Below are positions 5,556 through 52,964 of a stretch of DNA of 64,000 bases, one piece after another. The position numbers and the translations under genes are program-made. The notes beneath the pieces were generated by a model that worked only from the letters and a program-made list of their open reading frames with translations, was not told where the DNA came from and did no database searches. The stretch is taken from the IMG/VR virus record IMGVR_UViG_3300037200_000120, positions 34,893 to 98,892 of that record; one strand, 5' to 3'. Source of the stretch: a virus. The first letter of the stretch is position 1. Each line of letters begins with the position of its first letter.

Positions 5556-7898
5556 TCAGTAAAACGGCACATACCGGAGAAACCCATTCACCCTGATCTG
5601 CATACACGCCGTCGCAGAGCCACCGCCGCAACCGGACGCATTGCCCGTAGATGTTCCGCCGATGCTGATTTGATTGGTCGTGTCGGTCGGCGCGGGATTT
5701 CCGCCAAACACCGCTCCTCCGTAAAGATTGGATACGCCCGCGACGCTGAGCGCGAACGCGCCGCTCGCCGATATTGTCAGGTCCCCGCTGTTGTCGGTCG
5801 TAAATCCGGGCATGCAGAGCACGCATCCGGTGAAGTTGACCGCCGTAGCGACGATGCCGTTGACGAAATTTCCGCCTGAACTCGTGCCAAAGGTGATGCC
5901 GTTGTCTACCGTTACCTGATTGTTTATTCCGAGCGCCAGCAGCCTCGAGATATGAACGCCCGGGTCTGGCGATCCATTCGTCCCGCCGTTGATCGCGACG
6001 CCGATGCGCTGTCCGTTCGAGTCGGTCCCGGAACCCGCGTTGGAGTAAACGTCAATTTCTGCGGCTTGAATAGGCGAAGTCGGGTTTACGACATTTGTTT
6101 GATCTATGGCTTGTACGTAAAGGCCCATAGCCCAAGCCATCGACGTCCCTGGGGCTTGCCCGTTCAGGATTTTGATTGCGCTTGCCGACACGCCAATCCC
6201 GAGCAATCCCGTCGAGGCCAAAGTCCCGACATATGTGATGGAACTGACGCCGTATTCGCTGCCCGTCTCGTGGAGACCCGTGCTAGTCTGGAAATAGGCA
6301 ACGTCGTAGACGGTGCTGCCTCCCGACGCCGGAGCTATCCTGAGCACCTGGAGAGGGGTGTAGCTGGCGGCATAGTTCGTAGGGGCCGAATATATTTCCC
6401 AACCGCAAGTGACGAGCGTGGAGCAACCGCTCATATCCAGGCCAGGGCTGCCGGCGCCAGCAACGTTGTTGGACAGACCCGGAAGTCCGGGCGTCGCGAA
6501 AGAATATGGTGCAGTTACTAGTCCGTTGGCGTTTGCGGTCAGGACCGTCGCACCGTTGGCGAACGACAGGGAGAAGCTGTTCGAGTTCGATCCCAAACTG
6601 ACGAAATTGTACACGAGTTGTACGAGATTGTTGCTGCCTGTTCCCGTGATGCCTAGCCCGAGATATACTGGATGCCCGCCCCCGAGCGTCGGGTCCAGAA
6701 AACTTGCGATCAGCTCCCCGCCGGCCGCCCCGGCGCTGATTGTCTGTGGAGCGGAGAATATATTGTTGATATTGTCTTCAGTGATCGTTCCCGAATTCGC
6801 CGGAAGGATGGCGAGCGACGTCCCGAGCGCACCCGTCGCCGGTTGAAGCGCGACATATCCGCTGGTCAGATTTTCGAAAACCAAGTTGCCGGTCTCCGAC
6901 CCGGCGATGCCAAGCGTCACTTCGCCGCCGGGAACAACGACGCTCGTCGCCGTCGATAGCGTTACTGGCCCGACTTGGGCCGAGATCGTGAGGCCCCCGG
7001 TCAAGCCGGTATCGGATTGAACGTATCCGGTCGGCGTTGCGCCGCCATTGGCGTAAAGATAGGAGTTGCAAAAGCTGCACCCGCTCAGGGCCGCAGTGAA
7101 TATCGCCCGCGTGGAGCCATTCGAACTGGTTCCGGAATTCTGGGCCTGGAAATTATTTTCAAACCCCGTATTGGCGGAGGTCCAAATAGTGTTCTCATTC
7201 CCCCCTGTCGCGAATGCCCCGCCGACGCCGGCGGGAATGGTCGTCGTGAGCCCGGGGACGCCGCCGGCGGAGGTCGCCAGGATGCTATTCGCCGTGGTCG
7301 TCAGCGGCGAAATCGTATTGCCGCCCACCGCATAGAAGCCTAGATTGTTGGCGAGACCGGTCGCGACCGTCCCACTGCCGCCACCGCCTCCGCCGCAAGC
7401 CCCGCCGGAATCGATCAGGCCGCCGCTGCCGTCGATCTGCGGGCAATGGCCGGATACGAGCGCTCCATCGGCCGTGAGGAAGGCATGTGTGTTGCCGGAG
7501 ATCGTCCCCGCCGTGACCGCGCCTGAGCCGTTGCCGAGCAGGGGACCGCTGAGGCCGGAAAATACCGCGCCCGTGATCGTCGGACTCTGGATCGTCAGCC
7601 CGATCGGAAGCGTGGGCGAGCAAAAAGTCGGGCCGGCGCCGGCGCCCTGAACGAGGCCGGTGCAGGGGAAGATCGGCATTTGAAGGAAGACGTTGACGTC
7701 AGCCTGCGTCGCCGAACTGGCGATCATATTGCTGGTCAGGGCATTGAGCGACTGAGGGGTGATGGCTCCCGAAACGTTGGGAAAGATCGTACTGTTGTTC
7801 TGAATGAGGAGTTGCGAACGCGTTTCCGAGGTCTGCGCCGAAGCGCCCCCGAGAAGTCCCAGCAGACAGCAAGCCGCGAGAAGCCCGCGACGGAACAT
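5556..7898 (-). CDS. Large tail fibre protein with signal peptide
   Basis: A 780-residue protein. It begins MFRRGLLAACCLLGLLGG with cleavage near ASAQ, a Sec signal. A poly-Gly linker at about residues 168-174 separates an N-terminal repeat region from a long beta-rich region with Gly/Ser/Thr/Asn repeats. The C-terminus (CGGGSATACMQIRVNGFLRYVPFY) looks like a small capping domain common at fibre tips. It is adjacent to the membrane protein gene at 7898-8320, sharing one base. Confidence 0.65.
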   Translation of the reverse strand: MFRRGLLAACCLLGLLGGASAQTSETRSQLLIQNNSTIFPNVSGAITPQSLNALTSNMIASSATQADVNVFLQMPIFPCTGLVQGAGAGPTFCSPTLPIGLTIQSPTITGAVFSGLSGPLLGNGSGAVTAGTISGNTHAFLTADGALVSGHCPQIDGSGGLIDSGGACGGGGGGSGTVATGLANNLGFYAVGGNTISPLTTTANSILATSAGGVPGLTTTIPAGVGGAFATGGNENTIWTSANTGFENNFQAQNSGTSSNGSTRAIFTAALSGCSFCNSYLYANGGATPTGYVQSDTGLTGGLTISAQVGPVTLSTATSVVVPGGEVTLGIAGSETGNLVFENLTSGYVALQPATGALGTSLAILPANSGTITEDNINNIFSAPQTISAGAAGGELIASFLDPTLGGGHPVYLGLGITGTGSNNLVQLVYNFVSLGSNSNSFSLSFANGATVLTANANGLVTAPYSFATPGLPGLSNNVAGAGSPGLDMSGCSTLVTCGWEIYSAPTNYAASYTPLQVLRIAPASGGSTVYDVAYFQTSTGLHETGSEYGVSSITYVGTLASTGLLGIGVSASAIKILNGQAPGTSMAWAMGLYVQAIDQTNVVNPTSPIQAAEIDVYSNAGSGTDSNGQRIGVAINGGTNGSPDPGVHISRLLALGINNQVTVDNGITFGTSSGGNFVNGIVATAVNFTGCVLCMPGFTTDNSGDLTISASGAFALSVAGVSNLYGGAVFGGNPAPTDTTNQISIGGTSTGNASGCGGGSATACMQIRVNGFLRYVPFY

Positions 7899-45731: not shown

Positions 45732-46434
45732 CGATAATATCTCGTAAAATTGAGGACGTAGAGGGCTTGGCGGAGTGGCCGTTGAGCGGCCCGGCGCGGG
45801 CTGGCGGGAACGTGGCGTTTTTGAACCAATCGAGTCGGAAACCCTGCCAACCGCGGTCGATCATCATCCGAGCCGCGTCCTGCGGCATGCCCGTCGCGAC
45901 GAATTCGTTCGCCAGCCGCGCGGCAGCTTGGGGCGTCAGCGGTTTGCGCATCCGCTGCCGGTGATCGATTACCTCGGCCGCCAGTTCGTCGCCCAAGGCT
46001 TCCGAGAGTTCCTGCCGAGGGGTTGGCTTCCGAATGGCAGTGGGCTGGGTCGGCGTTTCGACTTGGGGAACAGAATGCGTAGCATTCGTAAGGGGTATAA
46101 TTACTTCTTCTGCGCCATAAAGAACGGGCGTGGGCGCACATACGCGAGGCTCTGGTTTTTGTTTCCTAATTTCCTTTGAAATCATTGAAGAATTTTGGTC
46201 CGCAATAGGCGCGACGGTCGCTTCCGTGTCGCTTCCATGTCGCGCGACAGTCGCTTCTATGTCGCGCGATGCTCGTTCTTTTGCTTTTTGCGCCGCGCGC
46301 TTTGCCTTCCTGGCAGCCTCGACATTATCGCGCGCTTCGATCGCCTCCACGGCAAGCGCGATGGCCTCTGCTGGCGCCCCAGCATCTGACATGGCGCGGA
46401 TCAAGGCTGCGATGCTCACAGACGACCGCGCCAA
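45601..46434 (-). CDS. Phage replication initiation protein
   Basis: 277 residues. N-terminal domain with IAALIRAMSDAGAPAEAIAL, a basic coiled coil (EAARKAKRAAQKAKERASRD), a linker, and a C-terminal domain with ARMMIDRGWQGFRLDWF, the usual end of phage helix-turn-helix replication proteins. Overlaps the downstream replication gene. Likely binds the origin; none could be located. Confidence 0.6.
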   Translation of the reverse strand: MARSSVSIAALIRAMSDAGAPAEAIALAVEAIEARDNVEAARKAKRAAQKAKERASRDIEATVARHGSDTEATVAPIADQNSSMISKEIRKQKPEPRVCAPTPVLYGAEEVIIPLTNATHSVPQVETPTQPTAIRKPTPRQELSEALGDELAAEVIDHRQRMRKPLTPQAAARLANEFVATGMPQDAARMMIDRGWQGFRLDWFKNATFPPARAGPLNGHSAKPSTSSILRDIIDGKRHEQPDDSFDFGQTSGSAGPTIEGSVVEVLPRDGADRNRV

Positions 46435-46895
46435 TCTTCAGGCGTGATGTCCGCAGCGTCAGCGTGGAAGACATATCGCCCCTTCCACTCGCTCATCATG
46501 AGATCGCACTTGCTGCTATTGCAGGGCCTGCATGCTACTACGAGATTCGATAACTCATTCGTCCCGCCTCTCGCCAACGGAACGACATGATCGACCGAGA
46601 ATGGGCCTCCCTCATCATTGCAGTAGTAGCATTTGCGGCCATCTCGCCGATACACCACTCCCGTGAGAGGCAGCCATTCCTTTTCCGGAAGCCGGGGAGT
46701 CGCCGCGATCCCGAGCGTTCTGTGCGCCAAGGGAGCCGCGATTCGACGCAAATACCTCCGTTCGGAATAGACTTGAGCATCCTTCCTTTCGGCCTTGGCC
46801 GACCGCTTGCCGATTAATCCATCGGCGACGGTTCCCATCTGTTTTTTAGTGCATCCGGCTAGGCGCATCTGTTCAATCACGTCCTCAAGGGTCAT
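46416..46895 (-). CDS. HNH endonuclease
   Basis: 159 residues. HNH core: GRKCYYCNDEGGPFSVDHVV, PLARGGTNELSNLVVACRPC, NSSKCDLMM, with both Cys pairs and the His/Asn/His order. Starts at the ATG overlapping the stop of the gene before it. Lies at the head of the initiator gene, a usual place for free-standing HNH genes. Confidence 0.85.
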   Translation of the reverse strand: MTLEDVIEQMRLAGCTKKQMGTVADGLIGKRSAKAERKDAQVYSERRYLRRIAAPLAHRTLGIAATPRLPEKEWLPLTGVVYRRDGRKCYYCNDEGGPFSVDHVVPLARGGTNELSNLVVACRPCNSSKCDLMMSEWKGRYVFHADAADITPEDWRGRL

Positions 46896-47023
46896 GCGCG
46901 CCGCCATTCGGAGAGAAGGCGATCACCCCGCTTCGAAACTGAACGGGCAAATCTCTTGTCGACCGCATGCCCAGGATGCGCGTGCGCGGCGTTCAGCACG
47001 GCGCCGGAGACGATTCGGAGCAT
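46892..47023 (-). CDS. Small protein before HNH gene
   Basis: 43 residues (MLRIVSGAVLNAAHAHPGHA, then AVDKRFARSVSKRGDRLLSE). ATGA-coupled to the HNH gene. Helical and basic; unknown role. Confidence 0.5.
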   Translation of the reverse strand: MLRIVSGAVLNAAHAHPGHAVDKRFARSVSKRGDRLLSEWRRA

Positions 47024-48031: not shown

Positions 48032-49722
48032 GCGGATGAGCTTTCGTGACGGGCGGCGTCGGCGAGGATTCTTTCGCCGATCCATCTGACAACCGGAACC
48101 GCGAAACTGTTGCCGAGTTGGCGATACCTAGCTCCGTCGGCTTGACCTTTTCCAGTCTCGTCGGGTATCAATGTATAATCATCAGGAAATCCTTGTAGGC
48201 GCTCACACTCTCGTAATCGCGGGGTTAGACGACGAACGGCCCAACCCCCAGCACCTCCTTTCCCGTGGGCTACGTCGCCACGGTCGGAGGCGAATTGTTG
48301 GCTTTCGTCATGCCCCATGGAGCGCAGCGTCGGCGCGAGGTCTGAGGTCGCATCGGCGCCGTGATCCTTGCAGGAAAACGCGATTGGCCCAGTCTGGTAG
48401 GCGATTGCCGGCTCGGCGTTGGCGACGGCCCGCAAAGGATGGCACGGATCGCCGACCTTGGGGTTGCTGAAATTTGCCGGATGATGAATCTGGCGCGGAT
48501 CAAACGCAATTGCCAGCGGGTGCGCGCCGGCAGCCAGCGGATGGCAAGGATCACCGGGTTGCGGATTGGAGCGGTTCGTCGCGCTCGTGATCTGCGTGGT
48601 GTCGAAGGCGACGGCCCACGGCTTGACTGTTTCCAGCGTGCCGCAGATGTCTTCCGACACGGGCGGGGGCCGATCGTAGCCGCGCCCGTCGTCCCCGCGG
48701 AAACGATCCTGAAAGGCTATCGCCTGGCTGAAGCCGTCCGTATCGAGAGGCGCGGCATGGTCGCCGTAGACGCAGACGTCGCTCTGCCGAGCATCGAAGG
48801 CCGTCACACCGGCTTTGTGGGCGACGACGTCGCCCACAAAGCCGGTGGTTTGGTTGGCGCCTACCGTCAGACTGTCGGCAACTTCGCATGCGATCATAGT
48901 GGTGGACTCGTAATCCTGAGACGCGCCCTCGCGCGTTGCGACGCAACGCGCGAGGGCGGGCGCTGCAATCAATCCTCCGTCGCGGTCGAAATCTGTTCCG
49001 AGCCCGCCACCGCCTCGAGTGCGCGCCGCAAGAGTAGGGGCAACTCTTTCCCGCGTTTCTCGGCGCGGCGCAGAATCCCCCTGCACGCTTTTGCGCTCAA
49101 ATAATATCGACGCTGGATCAACCCTGTCTCCAAAACCGATGACAACGAACACACGGCGGCGTCGTTGGGCGAGTCCGTGGTATTGAGCATCCCGAACGAA
49201 CCACGCAAGCCGCGCCCGTGGTCCATGAACCATACCGACGTCGGGCCATCCTCCCCCTCTAGGCGGTACGAGGGCGCGTTCGCTTCCGACAAACGCTCCC
49301 AGCAAACAACCGAAGGCGTTGTCTGGGGTATTGAGCAGTCCTGGCACATTTTCGTAGAGGGCGCCGCGGAGTCCGCATAGTCGAACAAGTTCATGAGCGA
49401 GCACCACATAAGCCAGTGTTAGATTTCCGCGCGCGTCATCCAAAGAAAGCCGCTTTCCTGCGATAGAAAACGCTTGACACGGCGGGCCTCCTATCAACCA
49501 ATCGACCCTACCTAGACTTGCGGGATCAATCAAGGTAAAATCGCCATAGTTGGGAACGCCGTTTCGCGATAGCGGCTCGCCCGGCATGTTCGACCCGTAG
49601 TGATGCGCCAGCACGCGCGACGCAGCCTTGTCGATTTCCGCAAAGCCTACGGGCGTGAAACCGAGCGGCTCCAATGCGCAGCTCGCCGCCTCGATCCCAC
49701 TGCACACGCTCAGGAAACGCAT
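48028..49722 (-). CDS. C5-cytosine DNA methyltransferase
   Basis: 564 residues with all main motifs: I SVCSGIEAAS (5-14), IV GGPPCQAFS with catalytic Cys 82, VI ENVPG (124-128), VIII AQRRRRVFVV (about 185-194), and X YRQLGNSFAVPVV near the end. A long target-recognition region lies between VIII and IX (about residues 200-500) with DxxxxxN-type repeats (FDTTQITSATNRSNPQPGDP). Two perfect palindromes lie in the part that encodes residues about 255-306. Start at an ATG that overlaps the preceding gene. Confidence 0.9.
   Translation of the reverse strand: MRFLSVCSGIEAASCALEPLGFTPVGFAEIDKAASRVLAHHYGSNMPGEPLSRNGVPNYGDFTLIDPASLGRVDWLIGGPPCQAFSIAGKRLSLDDARGNLTLAYVVLAHELVRLCGLRGALYENVPGLLNTPDNAFGCLLGAFVGSERALVPPRGGGWPDVGMVHGPRARLAWFVRDAQYHGLAQRRRRVFVVIGFGDRVDPASILFERKSVQGDSAPRRETRERVAPTLAARTRGGGGLGTDFDRDGGLIAAPALARCVATREGASQDYESTTMIACEVADSLTVGANQTTGFVGDVVAHKAGVTAFDARQSDVCVYGDHAAPLDTDGFSQAIAFQDRFRGDDGRGYDRPPPVSEDICGTLETVKPWAVAFDTTQITSATNRSNPQPGDPCHPLAAGAHPLAIAFDPRQIHHPANFSNPKVGDPCHPLRAVANAEPAIAYQTGPIAFSCKDHGADATSDLAPTLRSMGHDESQQFASDRGDVAHGKGGAGGWAVRRLTPRLRECERLQGFPDDYTLIPDETGKGQADGARYRQLGNSFAVPVVRWIGERILADAARHESSSA
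48807..48847. repeat. Perfect 41-bp palindrome (20-bp arms)
   Basis: CACCGGCTTTGTGGGCGACG, one A, and the exact reverse complement of the arm. Inside the methyltransferase coding sequence, in the variable recognition region. The arms stop matching immediately outside. Confidence 0.9.
48924..48958. repeat. Perfect 35-bp palindrome (17-bp arms)
   Basis: CGCCCTCGCGCGTTGCG, one A, and the exact reverse complement. About 75 bases from the 41-bp palindrome and with the same one-base A centre. Confidence 0.9.
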
Positions 49723-50307: not shown

Positions 50308-50979
50308 TTATTGTCCCCCCAGCATTTTTTTCAGCAGAGCGAGTTCTTCCCGCAAAGTTGGATCAATTGCGCATAACGACTCGATCCTTTGAACCGCGTG
50401 GATCGCCGTAGAATGATCACGACCGCCAAACTTACGGCCAATCTCTGGGTATGACCGCAAAGTCAATTGCTTCGCCAGATACATCGCCAATTGGCGAGGC
50501 CTCACGATGATCGCCGTGCGCCGCGACGATAGGATGTCTCTCACGGTTACGGGGAAGTATCTCGCCGCCACCACGCGGACGATGTCTTGGATCGTTGGGG
50601 CATTTTTTACGGGAGGAACTTCCGATTCCGTTTCAGCTCGCTTGGCTGCGATCAACTCGAGTTCCGCAATACGCGCCTTGAGAGGCCGCAACGCGCGTTC
50701 GATCCGAGCTTCGGTGTTGTCCTCCTCGGGAGTAGTCTCGGGCGTTCTGATCAAAGACAAAGGCTTCATCACGACTTCGGGCTGCTCTACCCGCTTGAGA
50801 ACAGTAGCCGGCAAAGTTCGCGGATCGCGCGCGCGCCTGGCCGCGTGGGCCTTCCGCAGGGCTTCCCCGGCATTGGGACCGAGGCGTTCCGCTTCCTGCT
50901 CTGGCGACGTTCCTATCTCGATCGGGCAGCGGGAACTGAGGCTGGCGGAGTAGGAGCCTTGGGAGAAGATGGCGGTCAT
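50308..50979 (-). CDS. DnaA domain IV-like DNA-binding protein
   Basis: 223 residues; start at the ATG overlapping the stop of the Dam-type gene. C-terminal domain (about residues 140-223): [20 protein letters not shown], then [20 protein letters not shown] and [13 protein letters not shown], which is the DnaA signature (DHSTxxHAxxxI) and the origin-binding helix-turn-helix. The AAA+ ATPase domains of DnaA are absent. N-terminal half is linker and coiled coil. Could bind DnaA boxes on phage or host DNA, either to start replication or to compete with host DnaA. Confidence 0.75.
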
Positions 50980-51458
50980 ACGGCATTCCTCACTAACCAA
51001 CCCAGAGATCGCGCATTGTAGAGCGCCGCGACCCCACGCGCTCCGATCGCCATCAGCGCCGTTCCGGTTCCTGGCGATTTGCCGATAGTCCCGTCAGGGC
51101 GTTCGAATTTGACCTTTGGCGAGATGAACAGGACCGCATCCATCTTCGGAGCGGCCCATTGAAACCATGGGGCTGACGTGCGATCAGGAACAAGGCAGAC
51201 CCCGTTGGCGTGGGCGACGAAAGTTTCCAGCCAAGGCATGAGGCCGTTGCGTTTCCCAAACGGGGCATTCATCCAACAGAACCCGTCCCACGACCACGAC
51301 GTCTCTTGGCCCTTGAAGATCCATCGATTCGCCGGCACATGGCGCGGGCCTTCCTTGGGCGCGGCAACGTCGACGTCGAACCTGACGCCGAGCGCCTCGA
51401 AAATATAGGCGGGAGTATGCCACTCGTCGCTCTGGCCTTCCGTTTCCCATGCGCTCAT
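50976..51458 (-). CDS. Phage DNA N6-adenine methyltransferase (Dam-type)
   Basis: 160 residues. [20 protein letters not shown] is the N-terminal signature of the phage Dam-like family (PF05869 type); [15 protein letters not shown] carries the NPPY-equivalent motif, here NAPFG. No large recognition domain, as usual in this family. Protects phage DNA or marks it. Overlaps the DnaA-like gene. Confidence 0.8.
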
Positions 51459-51520: not shown

Positions 51521-52335
51521 GACTGCTTCTCCGCGTTACGCTGCTCGAGGGCCGATCTTTGTTTAGGTGGATCGCCCATCAGTAGGGCCGTCAGGTTTAC
51601 GGGCAGGCGTTTATTGCGCGCATCGACAATTCGCTCTTCCAAAGGCGTTGCCGGAAGAGAAGAGTGCGAAAATTCGGTTTTTCTTTCGTGGCGCGAGCGC
51701 TGGAAGTCATCGAGTGCGCGCGCGGCCGGCGACGGCTCAATGTGTCTCGGCTCAGTGGGCGCGGAGCGAGAAATGGCTTTTTGCTCTGGTCCTAGTTTCT
51801 CGACGATCTGCGGATGCAGTCCACGCAGTTCGTCATCCGTGATGTTCGTGAGGCGAAGGGGCGGAAGGGCGGATATGTCGGGATTAGCCGCGCCGACAGT
51901 GCGATCGAATATCTTGGGGACAGGTACGACGAGAAGATCGGAGAAGGGGATATCCTCATCGGCAGGCGGCGCGGCGGGCGCGGCCGCACGATTCTGGATC
52001 GCGGCTTCGGCCTCAGTCGCGTTGATCGCCGCATTGAGCGCGGCCTTGACGGTTTCGAGGTCCGCGTCGCGCCACCATGAACCTCGGACTCTCTTCTCTC
52101 GGATCGCTTGGCGGGTATGTCCGCTGGCCTTCGGGTTTCCACAGAGGATCGCGAGCCTAGTGGCGACGACCCTTGGAAAAACTTCCAGCAGCGCCGCTAA
52201 CGCGAGCCAGCGGCCACGCACGGTCGCACCCTCGACGGTCAGGATTGGGTCCTCGTCATGCAGACGAGCTGCGGTGACGATCGCGACGGCGATCTCTCTC
52301 GCTGTAGGCCAGGCGATGGGGCGAGCGTCGGTCAC
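51517..52335 (-). CDS. Hypothetical protein with DNA-binding-like N-domain
   Basis: 272 residues. WPTAREIAVAIVTAARLHDE and RWLALAALLEVFPRVVATRL, then KASGHTRQAIREKRVRGSWW, suggest an N-terminal DNA-binding region, followed by a Pro/Ala-rich disordered segment. Between two methyltransferase genes. A GcrA-like role is conceivable but unsupported. Confidence 0.45.
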   Translation of the reverse strand: MTDARPIAWPTAREIAVAIVTAARLHDEDPILTVEGATVRGRWLALAALLEVFPRVVATRLAILCGNPKASGHTRQAIREKRVRGSWWRDADLETVKAALNAAINATEAEAAIQNRAAAPAAPPADEDIPFSDLLVVPVPKIFDRTVGAANPDISALPPLRLTNITDDELRGLHPQIVEKLGPEQKAISRSAPTEPRHIEPSPAARALDDFQRSRHERKTEFSHSSLPATPLEERIVDARNKRLPVNLTALLMGDPPKQRSALEQRNAEKQS

Positions 52336-52964
52336 GCGGCGACCTCGGGCGGATAGTCGCTATCCTTTTCGAGGCGACGACGACACGGCGGTATCCAATG
52401 AAGCCTTGTGCCCGACGCCGCTCCATTTCTCCACACCAACCAACAATAACTCGTTGCCGTCGAGCCGTGACGGTCCAGCCGTCCTTTGAACATCGGGACG
52501 CGCTCGACGAATTGGAGTACGTCGGTTGGGGGCGTCTTGCTGAAAAGCGAATTGAACCGAGCGGCGCTTTCAAGGAAAGCCGTTCGAACCAGAATCGCCG
52601 ACGCGACGCGGGAAACTTCGCGCATCTTGATCGCGAATTGCTCCGCTAAACGAAATGGGGGATTCGTCACCGCAAAGTCGACAATCCTATCCGTTGCGAA
52701 CAGGAAATCCTCGACCTTGCCGAAGCCATAATCGTGAACGTCCGACGAATAGACTTCGCCGAAATACTCCGCCAGCGCGCAACTCATATGGCCCTCTGCG
52801 CATGCAGGCTCCCAACAAGTGACTTGCTTCAAGACGCCGGCGGCGCCTTTCTCTAGCCACTCACAAAGCGCTCGCGTCGCGAAAGGAGGCGTGGGAAAAT
52901 GGTCAAGGCTATCGTTCGCCTCGATGCGCGTTGCCATGACAGCGTTACTGCGATTTTGCGCCAC
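52332..52964 (-). CDS. Class I SAM-dependent adenine methyltransferase
   Basis: 210 residues. Motif I WEPACAEGHMSCALAEYFG, a following acidic strand with YSSDVHDYG, and motif IV DFAVTNPPFRLAEQF (NPPF). Aligned to small phage MTases lacking a recognition domain. Third methylase in the block. TAATG-coupled to the gene before it. Confidence 0.8.
   Translation of the reverse strand: MAQNRSNAVMATRIEANDSLDHFPTPPFATRALCEWLEKGAAGVLKQVTCWEPACAEGHMSCALAEYFGEVYSSDVHDYGFGKVEDFLFATDRIVDFAVTNPPFRLAEQFAIKMREVSRVASAILVRTAFLESAARFNSLFSKTPPTDVLQFVERVPMFKGRLDRHGSTATSYCWLVWRNGAASGTRLHWIPPCRRRLEKDSDYPPEVAA

Follow-up and report, generated by a model that had tools for sequence, protein, structure and literature searches.

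One-base-centre palindromes in the mosaic recognition region of phage C5 methylases

The recognition region of a family of phage C5 cytosine DNA methylases contains palindromes in which two arms of at least 10 bp flank a single central base. Our results indicated that these palindromes are a real, non-random class of elements, which is undescribed as far as we have found. Template switching is their most likely origin, and a function as reversible one-codon switches is attractive, if unproven.

Two palindromes in a mosaic methylase gene

The window, a 64-kb stretch of DNA taken from a virus record of 98.9 kb (34893-98892), carries two perfect palindromes of 41 and 35 bp, each with a central A (Table 1). 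Both had been reported in the initial annotation and are present exactly where it placed them; it also assigned the pair to the recognition region of a C5 methylase, and they do lie in the segment of the gene that varies, flanked by the conserved N- and C-terminal parts. The gap of 75 bases that it gave was measured as 76. In 40 windows simulated with a first-order Markov model, the longest one-base-centre arm had a mean of 8.4 bp and a maximum of 11 bp, and the Markov expectation for one-base-centre palindromes in the window is ~7e-6 for arms of at least 17 bp and ~1e-7 for arms of at least 20 bp. No further perfect inverted repeat with arms of at least 10 bp and a spacer of fewer than 10 bases was found in the window.

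Table 1. Palindromes, methylase gene and neighbouring features of the window
Feature	Position	Strand	Remarks
Palindrome 1	48807-48847	.	41 bp; 20-bp perfect arms, CACCGGCTTTGTGGGCGACG-A-CGTCGCCCACAAAGCCGGTG
Palindrome 2	48924-48958	.	35 bp; 17-bp perfect arms, CGCCCTCGCGCGTTGCG-A-CGCAACGCGCGAGGGCG
C5 cytosine DNA methyltransferase, 564 aa	48028-49722	-	matches to PF00145, TIGR00675, phrog_116 and M.HhaI
Variable modular recognition region	48238-49092	-	~residues 211-495; position of the target recognition domain
Recognition cassette APALARCVATREGASQDYESTTMIA (~25 aa)	48889-48963	-	contains palindrome 2
Long open frame	48361-49104	+	antisense to the methylase
HNH endonuclease gene	46416-46907	-	downstream of the methylase; weak match also to phage endonuclease VII families
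Phage protein with DnaA C-terminal DNA-binding domain	50308-51000	-	PF08299
Two more DNA methyltransferase-like genes near the C5 methylase	50976-51458; 52332-52964	-	Dam family PF05869; phrog_799

At the centre of palindrome 1, an A on the plus strand corresponds to a T on the gene strand, the second base of the Val299 codon (GTC), in the peptide context TTGFVGD-V-VAHKAGV. Its left arm encodes TGFVGD, a conserved motif of homologous cassettes, and its right arm (VAHKAG) diverges from these cassettes beyond VA, the KAG being the reverse complement of the left arm and absent from the homologues. Similarly, the centre of palindrome 2 is the second base of the Val261 codon (GTC), in the peptide PALARC-V-ATREGA, and is a lengthened form of the widespread element GCGCGTTGCG-W-CGCAACGCGC (the ARC element), the arms of which measure 10-12 bp in relatives and have here grown to 17 bp via the codons of A256, L257 and G266-A267. 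Both palindromes hold the state that is usual for their position (T, Val), and the complementary base at either centre (V261 or V299) would turn GTC into GAC, encoding Asp. With the centres at second codon positions, the two strands give the same peptides (TGFVGD, ALARC and ATREG), and the long antisense open frame is probably due to the palindromes and the high G+C content rather than being a gene. Assembly fold-back, against which the initial annotation had warned, is unlikely, because complete genomes of independent origin, namely the cultured Sinorhizobium phage NV1.1.1 and the Mesorhizobium chromosome NZ_CP034448, carry palindromes of the same kind and because the arms are conserved across independent contigs.

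The gene that carries the palindromes was identified as a C5 methylase by PF00145 (E=1.5e-32; 113.7 bits against a cut-off of 22), TIGR00675 (110 bits against a cut-off of 100.65), phrog_116 (E=5.6e-69) and sequence similarity to M.HhaI (E=3e-10). In 34 sequences, P81 and C82 (PC), E124, N125 and V126 (ENV), Q186, R187, R188 and R190 (QRRR), and G537 and N538 (the C-terminal GN) are invariant. The core is predicted to fold as in M.HhaI: in a model of a relative (L155) most of the core had pLDDT >80, and the best matches in the PDB were M.HhaI and DNMT3A (E ~1e-10). The insert was predicted with pLDDT of only ~25-45.

Relatives were collected by protein searches, which yielded methylase genes from IMG/VR contigs, genome contigs, phages and plasmids. 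Their comparison revealed that the recognition region is a mosaic of cassettes of 25-40 aa, which are common to different phages and occur in differing order. Near-identical methylase cores bear quite different cassette sets (L062 versus L065; L029, L011 and L024), and L062 and L065 are alike apart from swapped single cassettes. The cassette that contains palindrome 2 is swapped as a ~75-bp block between otherwise different genes, and inter-contig alignments of it usually span from ~-23 to ~+52 around the palindrome centre. In one relative (L028:3001-5103), ~200 aa that its relatives lack are inserted in frame into the conserved C-terminal part, and another palindrome with 11-bp arms lies downstream, at 5955 of that locus.

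Multispecific C5 methyltransferases with tandem target-recognising domains are encoded by SP-beta-type phages of Bacillus. The genes analyzed here resemble them in having a conserved catalytic core and several exchangeable units of ~25-40 aa between the N- and C-terminal parts, and differ from them in a cassette repertoire that is far larger and freely recombined; the modular mosaic is apparent from the sequences, and the target of each unit is putative. To our knowledge, one-base-centre palindromes have not been described in the SP-beta-type enzymes. Dmt of phage P1 and its relatives belong to the same methylase family and likewise have a variable insert, and no one-base-centre palindrome was found in the P1 dmt gene. 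In addition, P1-type dmt was observed in 493 of 5426 complete E. coli genomes (on P1-like plasmid-phages), and about half of these matches covered less than 80% of the query at an identity mostly of at least 95%, which is consistent with replaced stretches.

A discrete class confined to one gene region

The frequency of the palindromes was determined in 164 methylase genes fetched by protein search (119 kb of insert), and the loci fetched by palindrome DNA (L136-L157 and L253-L269) were omitted from this count. One-base-centre palindromes with arms of at least 10 bp numbered 22 in these genes, against ~0.3 in synonymous-codon shuffles, one-base-centre arms of 4-9 bp occurred at the null frequency, and no zero-base-centre arm of at least 9 bp was found. 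The floor at 10 bp is sharp; most arms measure 10-12 bp and a few measure 17-21 bp. The longest of the class, with 21-bp arms, lies at about codon 226 of the extracted methylase gene of an alphaproteobacterial genome (L161), and its left arm encodes the conserved motif FDLDGGL.

A scan of the genes revealed perfect palindromes that were almost all centred on exactly one base. For 11-bp arms in 176 inserts, a one-base centre was found with 25 perfect palindromes against a null of 0.1 and with 18 one-mismatch palindromes against a null of 1.6, and was at the null level with two or more mismatches; centres of 0 and of 2-9 bases equalled the null in every mismatch class of the same inserts. Near-palindromes with 3-4 mismatches were likewise no more frequent for one-base than for zero-base centres beyond the null. 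As the excess stops at one mismatch, the class is not a continuum of imperfect repeats. Chance is ruled out by both the Markov and the synonymous-codon nulls, and the latter, which preserves the protein, also disposes of a protein motif that happens to be palindromic in DNA, predicting only the low number given above.

The palindromes are confined to the modular recognition region and their sequences differ among genes. In ~1.4 Mb of other DNA from the same loci, with methylase copies removed, ~5 such palindromes were found, not above the numbers for other spacer sizes. The class is thus not a genome property, nor a genome-wide trait of these phages, because this neighbouring DNA has no excess; it shows a ~fifty-fold concentration in a single region of one phage gene family. 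A dispersed mobile palindromic element was also rejected, since unrelated sequences occur within one gene family and not one sequence family over many genes. Most of the related methylase genes have no palindrome.

Independent origins and turnover of the centre base

On the tree of the methylase core, the presence of palindromes requires at least 16 changes, at least 11 of which are forced by supported branches; with sequences and positions that differ, and a tree that demands many origins, a single inherited element was rejected. Of the 24 independent palindromes, 18 are centred on codon position 2, six on position 1 and none on position 3, against ~30% of null near-palindromes centred on position 3. 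Codon alignments with palindrome-free homologous cassettes revealed that the arms were overwritten in register, with no change of length, in L141, L145, L144, L022 and L061. Examples are YGGVASV against the YGADASV of relatives (L141), GGSDATAL in place of GGDIATAL (L145), QITSRAIRTR in place of QITSKVNGTR (L144), DEVSATLR against the conserved SPTLR of relatives (L022), and GSGRRAPI in L061 and L145 against GSGRGAPI in L143.

Fifteen cases were informative on how the centre relates to the most frequent base of palindrome-free homologues; of these, eight had the same base, six its complement and one another base, so that six of the seven changed centres are complements. The complemented centres alter conserved residues (G in 70 of 71, D in 18 of 18 and N in 7 of 7 homologues), giving G->R, D->V and N->I, respectively. 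In addition, both centre states of the same palindrome were observed in different contigs for ARC[V/D]ATR, DGG[L/Q]TAVC and GSGR[R/G]API. The changes observed consist of arm copying and complementing of the centre, and are not adenine-directed as in a diversity-generating retroelement.

Of these pairs, ARC[V/D]ATR belongs to a widespread cassette. In the viral collection, 22 contigs contain the core of the element, in every case in this methylase cassette, and an exact search of 397 genomes of the order to which the Mesorhizobium locus belongs gave one match, in a prophage methylase. Of 24 distinct sequences, picked so that the central base was either A or T, 14 encode Val (T) and 10 encode Asp (A), and this state is uncorrelated with relatedness; every member of a set fetched by peptide (n=26) likewise has T or A there. 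The Asp form is present in the cultured Sinorhizobium phage NV1.1.1. Silent third positions in this cassette have nearly reached saturation, and a centre that carries no signal of kinship therefore points to rapid turnover, not to a turnover faster than that of silent sites; flipping at such a higher rate was considered and is unsupported for the same reason. This comparison shows that the nonsynonymous centre base changes about as readily as silent bases do. Downstream conservation is 0.94 in Asp-state and 0.88 in Val-state cassettes, and since the former are as conserved as the latter, the Asp state does not look like decay.

The arms of the ARC palindrome behave differently from what the initial annotation had expected of such arms, namely that they would normally be lost quickly. 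In a sample that was fetched by the peptide downstream of and outside the palindrome, and not by palindrome DNA, silent sites are all but frozen inside the 21-bp ARC element: among pairs with the same residue, the fraction with differing codons is 0.00-0.18, against 0.27-0.72 for flanking cassette codons (with the one-codon Met excluded). Related cassettes (L050 and L029) retain the palindrome in other letters: both bases differ in 6 of 12 pairs, and pairing holds in 97% of cells. Because the centre is at codon position 2, the third position of a codon in one arm pairs with the first position of a codon in the other, and arm-to-arm repair together with protein constraint would freeze the silent sites.

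Template switching and the alternatives

We favour, with moderate confidence, the view that replication template switching within recognition cassettes gave rise to the palindromes, which toggle one codon and are retained by selection. At a partly self-complementary stretch, the growing strand would jump to the complementary strand, copy ~10-12 bases (sometimes ~20) backwards and then return in register, and the result would be two identical arms and, if the jump precedes the centre, a complemented single centre. A finished palindrome may flip again, toggling the centre codon between Val and Asp, Leu and Gln, Pro and Ala, or Gly and Arg, and arm mismatches would tend to be repaired from the opposite arm. 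Selection on cassette specificity or activity may keep these events in this region, and each palindrome would then serve as a one-codon switch that is slow and reversible. What we infer is that the enzyme-level route is template switching, that flips are reversible within a lineage and that selection acts. The discreteness of the class, the occurrence of one-base centres with arms of at least 10 bp only, the complementary centres, the frozen arms and, in several cases, the in-register overwriting argue for this account, and template switching in the recognition domain, one of the origins offered in the initial annotation, fits well with arms that are identical in register, a centre that is complemented and origins that are many and independent.

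Quasipalindrome template switching in coding genes of yeast homogenises arms and inverts spacers, in scattered cases with spacers of 2-5 bases, in a study that covered changes of two or more bases only (PMC8604942), and hotspots and reporters of such events have been described in E. coli (PMC7202029). The palindromes analyzed here resemble these cases in their perfect in-register arms, the inversion of short spacers, recurrent and putatively reversible flips and the change of one or two amino acids, and the arm threshold of 10 bp agrees with the requirement of arms >9 bp for spacer inversion in quasipalindromes. Unlike them, they occur in one phage gene region, exclusively with one-base spacers and never with the centre at codon position 3. 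The exclusive one-base spacers bear against the account, as a range of spacer lengths is a hallmark of template switching and spacer 1 alone exceeds the null here; 8 of 15 informative centres with the ancestral base also count against it. Partly matching sequences, which are possible starts of template switching, are about equally frequent at every spacer size, and the mechanism alone therefore does not predict the one-base pattern. Similarly, neighbouring genes without an excess suggest that a gene-specific cause, such as selection, would be needed. The restriction to one-base centres and to this gene region is thus unaccounted for by known template switching. Selection for codon changes would partly explain both restrictions, because inversion leaves a zero-base centre as it was and, at codon position 3, has mostly silent or mild effects. 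A more specific proposal, that of a contingency switch in which an element of 21-41 bp reversibly inverts one base pair and, without a recombinase, toggles one codon to turn a cassette on or off or to change its specificity, is one that we advance tentatively, as a possibility that has the odds against it.

The palindromes might instead be neutral by-products, formed by template switching in weakly constrained, often recombining cassettes, persisting unused and kept perfect by arm repair. A mosaic region with many cassette swaps, the many genes without palindromes and the common ancestral-base centres are consistent with this, but outside the palindrome the cassettes show strong conservation, in the flipped state included, centres of 0, 2 and 3 bases would be expected too and yet match the null, and codon position 3 is avoided as described above; we regard neutrality as rather unlikely. 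We think it improbable that a putative dedicated enzyme makes or uses one-base-centre sites of ~21-25 bp by their shape, in cassette shuffling or the joining of hairpin ends, and leaves the palindromes as footprints. The sharp arm floor, the narrow range of most arm lengths and the exclusive one-base centres would suit such an enzyme, as would a linker between cassettes (L049) that is flanked by two palindromes, one arm of each resembling a reversed cassette end, but several palindromes lie inside a cassette, with overwriting in register, and not at a junction, and no sequence is common to them.

Functional hairpins in mRNA or DNA, whether for regulation, for protein binding or as a nuclease target, are in our judgement very improbable. 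The covariation of arms between related cassettes and the frozen silent sites would be expected of hairpins, but the latter are also expected from arm-to-arm repair with protein constraint, loops of 3-8 bases would be tolerated and yet are absent, and the palindromes are missing from most related genes and vary in position and sequence. Of two further suggestions of the initial annotation, regulatory mRNA hairpins are unsupported, given the mostly palindrome-free relatives, the unrelated sequences between genes and the exclusive one-base centres, and a nuclease target lacks support, there being no shared sequence.

If the flip of the template-switched centre is selected, the palindromes would resemble the invertons of phase-variable methylases, in which reversible DNA inversion alters methylase action, and would differ from them in that the inverted segment is one base pair with no recombinase or long flanking repeat, as far as seen. 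Even if the palindromes are neutral, a signature limited to one gene region and one spacer size calls for explanation and offers a clean route to studying template switching in phages, and the cassette mosaic amounts to a natural library of many recognition modules. Should the flip be selected, it would represent an invertible DNA switch smaller than any other known to us, one base pair run by the ordinary replication machinery; it would tie template-switch mutagenesis to the evasion of restriction by phages, and Sinorhizobium phage NV1.1.1 would provide a natural, cultured test system.
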